Shown piece by piece: positions 20,798 to 24,856 of a stretch of DNA of 64,000 bases. How positions within the stretch are numbered: the first letter of the stretch is position 1; every line of letters starts with the position of its first letter. The notes under the pieces are model-generated. The model was not told where the DNA came from. It ran no database searches and was given only the letters and a program-made list of their open reading frames with translations. Both the position numbers and the translations under genes were made by a program. The DNA is from Gemmatimonadaceae bacterium (lineage in GTDB: Bacteria; Gemmatimonadota; Gemmatimonadetes; Gemmatimonadales; Gemmatimonadaceae), in assembly GCA_035606695.1 (NCBI GenBank), contig DATNEW010000029.1, positions 62,001 through 126,000 on the forward strand, read 5' to 3'.

Positions 20798-21265
20798 ATG
20801 ACCACGGACAAAAGCGGAACGGCCACGGACAGGCACGGAGACGGCGGAACTGCCGTCAACTGCGACGCCACAGAAAACCGTGAAACTGCGCGAGACGAGA
20901 CCAGGCTCGAGCATCACGACATCACTCGGCAGGTCATTGCTGCCTTTTATGTCGTCCGGAGAGAGCTCGGGATCGGACTGCCTGAAACGGTCTACGCGAA
21001 TGCGATGGCGGTCGTGCTACGACGTGCCGGGCTCGAAGCGAAACGTGAAGCCTACGTCGAAATGATTTTTTGGGGTGTCGTCGTCGGGAAAGGGCGTATC
21101 GACGTCCTAGTCGAAAACAAAGTCATCGTCGAGATCAAAGTTCTTCCCAAGATCGACGATCGCACCCGAACACAAACCATCGGCTATCTCCGCGCGTCGA
21201 AGCTACACGTCGGAATGATCTTGAACTTCGGCTCCGACTCGGGCTTTGTGCGCGTCGTAGGCTGA
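20798..21265 (+). CDS. GxxExxY protein, PDDEXK-nuclease-like
   Basis: 155 residues. The family name motif is G-L-P-E-T-V-Y (60-66). A PDDEXK-type core follows: R-I-D (Asp102), then V-E-I-K (Glu112, Lys114), in the context RIDVLVENKVIVEIKVL, and the end TIGYLRASKLHVGMILNFG. These proteins are widespread and of unknown function, and the fold suggests a nuclease. The first 30 residues are encoded by the left inverted repeat. The only in-frame ATG is at the very end of that repeat, so either the repeat is translated or an unrecognised start is used nearer residue 35. No operon partner. Confidence 0.87.
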   Translation: MTTDKSGTATDRHGDGGTAVNCDATENRETARDETRLEHHDITRQVIAAFYVVRRELGIGLPETVYANAMAVVLRRAGLEAKREAYVEMIFWGVVVGKGRIDVLVENKVIVEIKVLPKIDDRTRTQTIGYLRASKLHVGMILNFGSDSGFVRVVG

Positions 21266-21379
21266 CAACACTCTACGCGGCGCCGTCAAAAAAATAATCA
21301 CGCATTCCCGTGGTACTGCAGTTACCAGTTAACGCCGTCTCCGCGCCGTTCCGCGGTCGTCCGCCGCTGTCCGTGGTCA
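20799..21379. mobile_element. Inverted-repeat-bounded unit carrying a GxxExxY gene
   Basis: The left end TGACCACGGACA (20799-20810) is the exact reverse complement of the right end at 21368-21379. A second block CACGGAGACGGCG (20834-20846) returns inverted at 21333-21345 with one mismatch. Both ends then carry a GTnAACTG block. The unit holds one gene. Its right end reaches 3 bp into the stop of the glycosyltransferase gene. The 267-490 element has the same end blocks. No target-site duplication was recognised, so movement is unproven. Confidence 0.6.
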
Positions 21380-24300
21380 GGCAGTTAGCTCAACGGTAGC
21401 CTTCCTCTCCAACTTCCCCCACCCCACGACATGCCCGCGGATCGCGGCCCTGAACGACCGCACCACCACCATATACATGACCTGCCGATACGCGAACCGC
21501 TGCAGAAAAATCAGCCACGTCAGCTTCCGATCTTCGTCGGGTTCCATCCAGAACGCAATCACCGCCGCCACCCAATCCACCAGCAGAAACACACCGTAGT
21601 ACATCAGCACGTGTCGAAGATTGACGAGCGCGTACGTCGATCCGTGCTGCTGCCGGACGAGCCACACGCTGAACAGACTGTACACGAACATCAAATCCGC
21701 GATCGGCGACACGGCGGGAAAGAACAACTGAAACAGCCACACGTTCGGCATCGCCACCCAGCCCAGCGTTCCGTGCTCCCGGCGCATGAACACGCGACGA
21801 TGCTTCCACATGCACTGCAGCGTGCCGAACGACCAACGAAATCGTTGATTCGCTAATCCCCGAAGTGTGTCCGGCGCCTCGGTGAGCGCGATGGCATCGT
21901 CGGCGTATGCCACGCTATAGCCCGCGCGCCGCACGTTCAACGTGAGGTCCTGATCTTCCGCGAGCGTGTCGTCGCTGAATCCGCCGAGCGTGTCGACGAG
22001 CTCGCGCCGCCATGCACCGACGGCGCCCGGGACCACCGTGATGCAATCGAGCAGGGAGAACGCGCGCCGGTCGAGATTCTGGCTCGTCACGTACTCCAAT
22101 GCCTGCCAGCGCGTCACGATGTTGAGGCGGTTGCCCACCTTCGCGTTGCCGGCGACGGCGCCGACACGCTCGTCGCGCAGCGGCTGCACCAACCGCGCGA
22201 CCGTGTTGGGATAGAACACCGTGTCCGCGTCGAGCCCGACGATGATCTCGCCGTGCGCGCGCGCGATTCCATAGTTCAACGCCGATGCTTTCCCGCCGTT
22301 CGCCTTGCGATGAATGGTGACGCGCGGCTCCTTGCCGTACGCCTCCATCGCCTGATCGTACGTCGAATCCGGCGATCCGTCGTCCACCACCACGACCTCG
22401 AGCGACCCCGCGTACTCCTGCTGCAGCAAACTCTCGATCGTCTTCACGATCACTTTCTCTTCGTTGTACGCCGGTACCACCACACTCACGCTCGGCGCAT
22501 AGGTCGCCTCGTTATCACGCGCGAGATGCGAGAGCATCCGCTGCACCGCGGCGAGGAAAACGATGATCACCAGTCGGGCCGTGCCCAGCACCACGGCGAT
22601 CAGGAACAGCCAATAGAGAATCCACTCGATGACGCCGAACGTGCCGAATGCGAGGAGCTCGCTCAGTCGTGCGGCGGCGCTCGACTTGGGAAGCGGCGGC
22701 ATCGCCGCTTCGTGCGACATGCCCGCCAGCGACGACAGCAGCACCAACGTGTCGCCCTCGGCGCGAAGTGAATCGATCAGCGACCCCAATGCCGCGACGG
22801 TTTGCGCGCGATCGCCGCCGCCGTCGTGCATGAGAATGACGCTGCCGCTGCAGCCGCGCTCGAGCGTGATCGTCGCGTGCTGATGCAACGAGTCGCTGCA
22901 TTCGAGCGCGGCCCGTCTGCCGTCGAGCACGTTGGCGATGATCTGCTGCGCCGGCGGCTGCGTCCAGTCTTCGGAATCGACGTGCAAACCCGCGGTGACG
23001 TAGCCGAGCTCCGTCGCGATGCCGACAGGAATCAATTCGTCGGCGGTCGTCGGCTCGGCATCGCCGAAATACGGTGGACGAAAGAATGCGCTCCGTCGGT
23101 CGAGCACCGCTTCGATGATCCGCTCCGTCGCATCGAGCTGGAGTCGCGTCACGAGCGGCGACGTCAGCGCGAGATTCGGATGCGTGAAGGTATGATTCCC
23201 CACCTCATGCCCTTCGGCCGCGATGCGCCGCGTGAGCGCGATGTTCGTCTCGATGTTCTTGCCGATGAGAAAGAACGTCGCTGGCGCGTGACGCGACCGC
23301 AGCGTGTCGAGAATTTGCGGCGTCCAGCGACTATCCGGCCCATCGTCGAACGTGAGCGCGATGCGATGCGCGACGCCGCCCGAACGCTGCACGGTGTAGG
23401 GGAGCGGCACCGCGTCGATGCGCTCGCGCGTGATGAGGCCCGTGCTCTGCTGAATGCGCAACGTGCGCCGGCCAAGCGTTGGAAACGTCTCGATGCGCAG
23501 CAGCTCACCGGTGCCGCGAAAATCCACGTCGTATCCGGGCTGGACGCTGTCGAGCGAATCCGCGACCGGCGTCGCGCCGCCGTGGCGCAGTACGGACCAC
23601 AGCGAAGGATCCTCGGAGCCGAGTCGCCAGACGGCCGCACCGGCAGCGCCGATCGTTCGGCCGACGATGAGCTCGTTGTACGCCGTGACGCCGTCCAGAA
23701 ACCACACGACATGATCCGTCGAATCGGCGTCGGTCCACGTCACGTACGGGTTCATCGCGAGCGAATCGAACGCGATCGTCGCGTTGTGCTGATGCACGTT
23801 TCGCATCACGTCCTGGAACGTCTGCTCTTCGCCGACCGCATTGGGCTGCGCATCGTTCCAGTCATATCCGTACGCACCGACCGCGAGAATCAGCTTGTTC
23901 GCCGGAATGATGCTCGCGATGTGGCGCGCCTGCGTGTCGTACCACGACTGGCTCGCGACGGGGCCGCTGTCCTGACGCCCGGAATGTTCGTCGTAGAGCA
24001 TCATGATGATGCGGTCGTCGATCGCGGCATATTGTCGCAAAACCGCAGGCGTCGTCTCCGGCGGCAGCGCCTGGCTGATCACCAACCCCTTCGCGTGCAG
24101 CTGAGCGGCGAGATCGCGAACGAATTGCAGCACGTACGGCTGCAGCGGATCGGGAATGTCCTCGAGATCCACCGTCACGCCGCCGAGTCCGTATCGTGTG
24201 ACGTTGTCCATGAGCTGCGCGATGACCGCGGCGCGATGCACCGGCGACGTCACGAAGCGTTCGAGCATGCGCGGATCGAAGCTCGAGCGCGCCGAGTCGA

Positions 24301-24856
24301 AGTTCGTGAGCATCAAGTGCACGCTGGGCCGCTGGTTGCGCGGCAGCGTGCTATCGATGAGAAAGAGTACGCGCTTGTCGATTCGCGCGCGCAGCGAGTC
24401 GCCGTGCGGTGAGAGGAACCCCCACTCGCAAATCACCCAGTCGAGCTGCGCCGCGTGCAGCCGAAGCGACGAGAACGAGTTGTCGTCCCAGTTCACATAG
24501 AAGCCGGCGGTGATCCGTTGCGCCGGGGGTGTCGTGCGCTTCGGCGGGGCGGACGCACGCACGGGCAATTGGTTGCGGCGAATGGCCGGCGGTGCGGGAG
24601 AGTGCGTGAGGGCGGCGAACAGTCGGCGACGCGCGGCGATGCGTTCGCGCGCCGCTTTGCTTCCCGCGAAGCGCGTCAGGCCTGACGGATGTTCGTCGCT
24701 GCCGAGTGCCAGGCGCGGCAGGAGGGGCGGAATGATGAGGCTCGCCGCCAGGGCGACGCCCAGGATGGTGCTGACGATCGCGCCGGTGCGGGCGGCCGTT
24801 CGAAGAATGCGCTCGCGCCGCCCGTGCGGGTCGTGAAAGACGGGGCTTCTAGTCAT
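21377..24856 (-). CDS. Trifunctional fusion: GH18-like, NodB deacetylase and GT2 synthase
   Basis: 1159 residues. Order: membrane anchor (24-44), GH18-like barrel (about 115-430, GGVTVDLEDIP at 226-236), NodB polysaccharide deacetylase (about 495-715; TFDDGP 502-507, HTFTH with His555 and His559, RPPYFGD), two membrane helices (about 742-770), and a family 2 glycosyltransferase (about 787-1050; VVPAYNEE, VVDDGSPDS, DAD 876-878, EDQD, QRFRW) followed by more helices. The parts correspond to those of the PgaB/PgaC type of poly-N-acetylglucosamine machinery in one chain. It likely makes and trims an exported amino-sugar polymer. The start ATG lies in a dispersed repeat. Confidence 0.9.
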   Translation of the reverse strand: MTRSPVFHDPHGRRERILRTAARTGAIVSTILGVALAASLIIPPLLPRLALGSDEHPSGLTRFAGSKAARERIAARRRLFAALTHSPAPPAIRRNQLPVRASAPPKRTTPPAQRITAGFYVNWDDNSFSSLRLHAAQLDWVICEWGFLSPHGDSLRARIDKRVLFLIDSTLPRNQRPSVHLMLTNFDSARSSFDPRMLERFVTSPVHRAAVIAQLMDNVTRYGLGGVTVDLEDIPDPLQPYVLQFVRDLAAQLHAKGLVISQALPPETTPAVLRQYAAIDDRIIMMLYDEHSGRQDSGPVASQSWYDTQARHIASIIPANKLILAVGAYGYDWNDAQPNAVGEEQTFQDVMRNVHQHNATIAFDSLAMNPYVTWTDADSTDHVVWFLDGVTAYNELIVGRTIGAAGAAVWRLGSEDPSLWSVLRHGGATPVADSLDSVQPGYDVDFRGTGELLRIETFPTLGRRTLRIQQSTGLITRERIDAVPLPYTVQRSGGVAHRIALTFDDGPDSRWTPQILDTLRSRHAPATFFLIGKNIETNIALTRRIAAEGHEVGNHTFTHPNLALTSPLVTRLQLDATERIIEAVLDRRSAFFRPPYFGDAEPTTADELIPVGIATELGYVTAGLHVDSEDWTQPPAQQIIANVLDGRRAALECSDSLHQHATITLERGCSGSVILMHDGGGDRAQTVAALGSLIDSLRAEGDTLVLLSSLAGMSHEAAMPPLPKSSAAARLSELLAFGTFGVIEWILYWLFLIAVVLGTARLVIIVFLAAVQRMLSHLARDNEATYAPSVSVVVPAYNEEKVIVKTIESLLQQEYAGSLEVVVVDDGSPDSTYDQAMEAYGKEPRVTIHRKANGGKASALNYGIARAHGEIIVGLDADTVFYPNTVARLVQPLRDERVGAVAGNAKVGNRLNIVTRWQALEYVTSQNLDRRAFSLLDCITVVPGAVGAWRRELVDTLGGFSDDTLAEDQDLTLNVRRAGYSVAYADDAIALTEAPDTLRGLANQRFRWSFGTLQCMWKHRRVFMRREHGTLGWVAMPNVWLFQLFFPAVSPIADLMFVYSLFSVWLVRQQHGSTYALVNLRHVLMYYGVFLLVDWVAAVIAFWMEPDEDRKLTWLIFLQRFAYRQVMYMVVVRSFRAAIRGHVVGWGKLERKATVELTA

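Follow-up and report, generated by a model that had tools for sequence, protein, structure and literature searches.

A GxxExxY nuclease-like gene enclosed by phased inverted repeats in a Gemmatimonadaceae genome

The stretch of DNA analyzed here (the window) covers 64,000 nucleotides of the 5.9-Mb genome of a Gemmatimonadaceae bacterium (G000). It contains a small gene enclosed by inverted repeats, a second copy of the same repeat family without a gene, and a neighboring gene that ends inside the first element. The positions of these features are as follows.

20799 to 21379, plus strand: whole gene-bearing palindromic element with inverted ends; the T[G/T]ACCACGGA boundary was derived from 93 aligned ends of the family
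20799 to 20862, plus strand: left arm with phased CGGA-type motifs (TGACCACGGACAAAAGCGGAACGGCCACGGACAGGCACGGAGACGGCG) and inner AACTG blocks; doubles as codons 1-21 of the open reading frame
21318 to 21379, minus strand: right arm, repeating the left arm in inverted orientation; the neighboring minus-strand gene uses its terminal TGA as stop codon
20798 to 21265, plus strand: GxxExxY/PDDEXK_3 gene of 155 aa, with matches to TIGR04256 and PF13366 (alignment A1)
268 to 489, unstranded: second copy of the family in the window, gene-less, 222 nt, with a predicted fold of one long hairpin
21377 to 24856, minus strand: neighboring gene ending inside the element, named by inspection as polysaccharide deacetylase plus glycosyltransferase 2

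The outermost 12 bp of the element are perfect inverted copies, TGACCACGGACA at 20799-20810 and TGTCCGTGGTCA at 21368-21379, exactly as described in the initial annotation. Two inner blocks had also been reported to recur in the same order at both ends. This holds for GTnAACTG, which is present on both sides, whereas CACGGAGACGGCG (20834-20846) is imperfect at the right end, where its counterpart CGCCGTCTCCGCG (21333-21345) differs by one mismatch. The inverted-repeat alignment of the two arms scored 56, compared to a 99th percentile of 38 for the cross-pair control. As originally proposed, only a single gene lies inside the element, and it was identified as GxxExxY by TIGR04256 (E=9e-29) and PF13366 (E=1e-28). 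The sole ATG, GTG or TTG start upstream of its domain is an ATG made of one flanking A and the first two bases of the element. The estimate that the first 30 codons are repeat sequence was approximately correct: the arm accounts for ∼21 codons, and the GxxExxY/PDDEXK_3 domain begins at residue 41. On the other side of the element, the ortholog of the neighboring gene in the congener G003 (L106) has a longer C-terminus, as would be expected if insertion of the element had provided this gene with a new stop codon. We found no match of the element to an Rfam family and no rRNA match around it.

With 100 bits, the window protein scored well above the cut-offs of 35 (TIGR04256) and 22 (PF13366) and hence belongs to the GxxExxY/PDDEXK_3 family. 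The residues G30, G32, E35, Y38, D74, E84, and K86 are invariant in the alignment, and the catalytic-type residues are kept in the window protein as GRID, EIK, and QTIGY. In position, D, ExK, and QxxxY correspond to the motifs of RecB-like nucleases. The predicted model (pLDDT 92) gave Cas4 SSO0001 as its best structural match (Foldseek E 4e-4; Z 9.6, rmsd 4.9, 106 aligned). Further matches were other PD-(D/E)XK nucleases, including Hjc (Z 7.1), but this superfamily is very broad and matches with Z <8 were taken as superfamily-level only. A sequence search found no solved relative. The GxxExxY product models as a small RecB/Cas4-like PD-(D/E)XK nuclease. It would share the fold and the motifs with the Cas4/RecB family, but differs in being a single small domain that has no CRISPR or helicase context and is encoded within a palindromic repeat. 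Purifying selection acts on the protein: nearly all pairs have a dN/dS of 0.06-0.22, and the three misaligned pairs that involve L057 were discounted.

The ends of the element are part of a larger family in G000. The 12-mer occurs 16 times in this genome (reversed control: 0), and the inner 15-mer, allowing at most one mismatch, was found 56 times on each of the two strands (control: 1), mostly as inverted pairs 130-210 bp apart. These 112 matches compare to only 4-15, near background, in five congeners. Among these genomes, the family is therefore amplified in G000 only, that is, in a species-specific manner. Its extraction resulted in 50 entries, including 48 copies with both ends mapped, and revealed ∼50 paired gene-less copies of ∼115-285 bp and one gene-bearing copy, that of the window, which measures 577 bp between its ACC and GGT ends and holds the gene in the loop. 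The 93 aligned ends show background sequence up to position -3, followed by a weak T, then G/T and then the nearly invariant ACCACGGA, giving a sharp boundary and the family consensus end T[G/T]ACCACGGAC. For target-site duplications of 2-11 nt, we did not observe any excess at the 48 copies, using three offsets. At the stricter threshold, the window copy is scored as enclosed; of the other GxxExxY loci of G000, L017 and L018 have a one-sided palindrome, and L020 stayed below threshold.

Enclosure of GxxExxY genes by inverted repeats is widespread. It was observed for 13 of 22 genes in the same genus (controls: 1/88), for 37 of 67 across the phylum (7/245), and for 29 of 40 in a cross-phylum set (3/388) that takes in Acidobacteria, Chloroflexi, Bacteroidota, Planctomycetes, Verrucomicrobia, Nitrospirota, and Methanosarcinales archaea and is biased toward the GPGLLES subfamily by the two members used as queries. 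In a combined set of 119 genes, which overlaps the other sets, 53 were enclosed at a stricter cut vs. 1/226 shifted controls, and 74 had a palindrome around or beside them (shifted controls: 3/226). The arm sequences differ between elements, and PF13366 itself is distributed patchily (134/395 genomes). The initial annotation had compared the gene and its dedicated ends with RAYT transposases and REP sequences, and had listed, among the patterns that would speak against this view, ends that mostly lack the gene and GxxExxY genes that lack such ends. Both occur in part: gene-less copies outnumber the gene-bearing one by ∼50 to 1 in G000, and with the threshold applied, no nearby palindrome was found for ∼38% of the 119 genes. 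A RAYT-like system would be expected to show the same pattern.

A comparison of empty and filled orthologous sites had been suggested as well. The genes next to the window copy are not adjacent in congeners, where we found no empty site for this copy, and the evidence was therefore drawn from two other genera. In genus g4, an element of ∼1.4 kb present in G253 is missing at the orthologous convergent intergenic site of G368, G353, G397, G333, and G044, the flanks being 82-119 bp apart. Further species carry other palindromes at this position, including an independent GxxExxY gene in G272. This site (L236, L259, L266, L267, L270, L271, L277), with at least four unrelated palindromic elements, is an insertion hotspot. 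In genus g11, the orthologous site is occupied by the gene in G070, G036, G304, and G377 but empty in G120 (145 bp), and in G070 a complete gene-less palindrome is located on either side of the gene. The flanks diverge by 20-25%, so that the junctions of empty and filled sites are not base-exact. In g11 and g71 the gene resides at a fixed site and is vertically inherited, which indicates that gene mobility is rare and counts against the mobile pair proposed below.

The gene-less copies in G000 have a pronounced genomic context. According to a crude GC3-based ORF filter, 19 of them lie between two stop codons and one between two start codons. They are often located <30 bp from stop codons and have A/T-rich outer flanks, which makes them candidate bidirectional terminators. 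Several neighboring genes take the TGA of the element as their stop codon, and the predicted folding energies of the hairpins range from about -105 to -150 kcal/mol. Together with the g4 site, which is empty in some species and occupied by unrelated palindromes in others, this context favors the main alternative to an active role of the protein: the palindromes would be terminators or fold-back hotspots spread by other means (slippage, host repair, or another transposase), with GxxExxY and other small genes inserting in or beside them without acting on the arms. We regard this as unlikely, since it covers the context, but neither the specificity of the arm grammar nor the link of arm copies and ends to the gene, as detailed in the following; the co-variation of arms and protein likewise speaks against it.

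The core C[ACG][GA]A[GT], which is CGGA in the family of the window, is regularly spaced in 134 arms, at 8 bp (79), 9 bp (59), 10 bp (25), or 11 bp (5). None of these arms showed a spacing of 3-7 bp, and the shuffled control was flat. The cores point inward in 104 arms vs. outward in 9. Across lineages, the arms share one grammar, an inward-pointing CRGAG-like core every 8-11 bp. The helical repeat of DNA (10.5 bp) was considered as a simple cause and rejected, given a spacing of 8-10 bp with a mode of 8. At a distance of up to 350 bp, arrays of at least three CRGAG cores accompanied 26/35 of the enclosed and 17/35 of the non-enclosed GxxExxY genes, compared to 9/154 shifted controls and 2/52 PF05635 genes. 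The latter encode four-helix bundle proteins of the 23S rRNA intervening sequence family (23S-rRNA-IVP; L075-L104 and L282-L310) and also lie between long inverted repeats (20/26 and 21/26 vs. 3/104 shifted controls each), but their arms have a period of 7, in some cases 8. A lag of 7 was the best one in only 1 of 67 GxxExxY elements. The grammar is thus tied to GxxExxY and not to PF05635.

Arm similarity furthermore tracks protein similarity, with a Mantel rho of 0.446 (null 0.05, sd 0.054) that was reached by 0 of 2000 permutations within phylum; the value for Gemmatimonadota alone was 0.463. This co-variation could also stem from mere co-inheritance. At the level of genomes, PF13366 is encoded in 33/38 genomes with at least 10 CCACRGAGRCACRGAG matches vs. 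101/357 others (odds ratio 16.7, p=1.8e-12 in a Fisher test that treats non-independent genomes as independent, the 38 having been hand-picked from the match table out of 395). The end-rich genomes G054, G179, G221, G247, and G385 gave no PF13366 match; a contig end coincides with the orthologous site in G179, where the gene may be absent from the assembly only. In genus g11, query matches, mostly arm copies, number 16-64 in the five genomes that carry the orthologous gene and 4 in G120, whose site is empty. Extreme numbers of CCACRGAGRCACRGAG matches were counted in G254, G275, G363 (genus g71), and G009 (370, 297, 110, and 255, respectively), in which the reversed control was also raised (49, 113, 31, and 123).

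Taken together, the association between a nuclease gene and dedicated ends, as put forward initially, holds across many phyla and against controls, with co-variation, co-occurrence, and empty sites; that the protein recognizes the ends is what we infer from these sequence patterns. We favor, with moderate confidence, a pair resembling RAYT and REPIN, in which an unrelated nuclease would take the place of the Y1 enzyme and act on the arms. Such a pair would represent an undescribed type of genomic parasite, composed of an enzyme and its repeats. The nuclease, as a monomer or an oligomer, would bind to the phased motifs in DNA that is double-stranded, single-stranded or folded into a cruciform, and cut at the T[G/T]A|CC boundary or close to it. 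Cutting would mobilize the element that encodes the nuclease and also, in trans, the gene-less copies. Host repair would then complete the insertion, which would generate no target duplication and take place mostly next to stop codons where two genes converge.

Using the REPIN features described previously (PMC3116915), both systems combine a small enzyme gene with dedicated palindromes, have hairpin-forming inverted doublets and a gene flanked by its own repeats, and come with many non-autonomous extragenic copies (∼50 paired ones here) without target duplication; the gene is often single and vertically inherited. They differ in the enzyme, since RAYT is a Y1 (HUH) transposase whereas only the PF13366 gene, with a predicted PD-(D/E)XK fold, is found here, and in the arms, which are arrays of a phased 8-11 bp motif. 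The ends, T[G/T]ACCACGGA, are also unlike the GTAG or CGTC tags given for REPs in PMC3733652. The elements resemble MITEs of DDE transposons in being short, terminally inverted, non-autonomous, and multi-copy, but the gene-bearing copy of the window lacks a DDE transposase and target-site duplications are absent. A homing endonuclease element would insert at one conserved target that its enzyme cleaves; the ∼50 copies of this family at unrelated sites tend to speak against such an element.

A second alternative, which we consider distinctly improbable, places the element at the RNA level, similar to the intervening sequences of 23S rRNA. The arms would form an RNA stem processed by RNase III, thereby making insertions tolerable, and the protein would act on the RNA hairpin or its cDNA. 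Both indeed have a patchy distribution and a long stem whose loop holds an ORF, and the arms of both contain short tandem units, heptamers in the case of Coxiella (PMC4990558). The intervening sequence protein family PF05635 also occurs in the same architecture. Moreover, the two outer arms within a copy are more similar to each other than to those of other copies, if modestly (z 3.2). No excess of within-copy pairing was found for the inner arm, however, and strong selection for arm-arm base pairing was rejected; across elements, it is the motif spacing rather than the pairing that is conserved. The window element is intergenic between protein genes and lies outside rRNA or any other Rfam family, its protein is unrelated to the S23/IVP four-helix bundle, its unit is 8-11 bp instead of 7, and a RecB/Cas4-type PD-(D/E)XK fold usually belongs to a DNA nuclease. 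A defense or other host nuclease, selected for a function unrelated to the arms that merely package its gene, would agree with purifying selection, long vertical maintenance, and the patchy distribution, but is very improbable, as it leaves both the amplification of gene-less arms in gene-carrying genomes and the arm grammar unexplained.

Returning to the RAYT/REPIN-like pair, we found no published description of the association between GxxExxY genes and palindromes in the literature searched, and these common hypothetical proteins have almost no literature, their name appearing in the full text of only 2 of 5.39 million papers. Should they prove to be the enzymes responsible for phased inverted arrays, this would provide a cause for a large group of intergenic palindromes that are so far unexplained, make a new nuclease-based mechanism of DNA mobility amenable to testing, and account for the odd repeat-coded N-termini in annotations. 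The heptameric repeats of Xanthomonas and Nostoc likewise form intergenic arrays of short units, which in Xanthomonas are frequently paired in inverted orientation (PMC4692102), but these units measure 7 nt and had not been linked to any protein; they resemble the PF05635-type arms described above. More tentatively, and with the balance of probability somewhat against it, GxxExxY and PF05635 could represent two branches of a single, so far undescribed class of selfish elements in prokaryotes. In these, inverted arrays of short repeats would surround either a gene or an empty loop, and the protein family would set the unit length (8-11 or 7-8 bp), read the array, and drive its spread. Such a class would account for heptameric repeats that have been reported for decades without a cause. 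In G000, the two element types adjoin at one locus (L024/L098, C9, 157.2-157.9 kb), where a PF05635 gene is located ∼100 bp past a gene-less copy.
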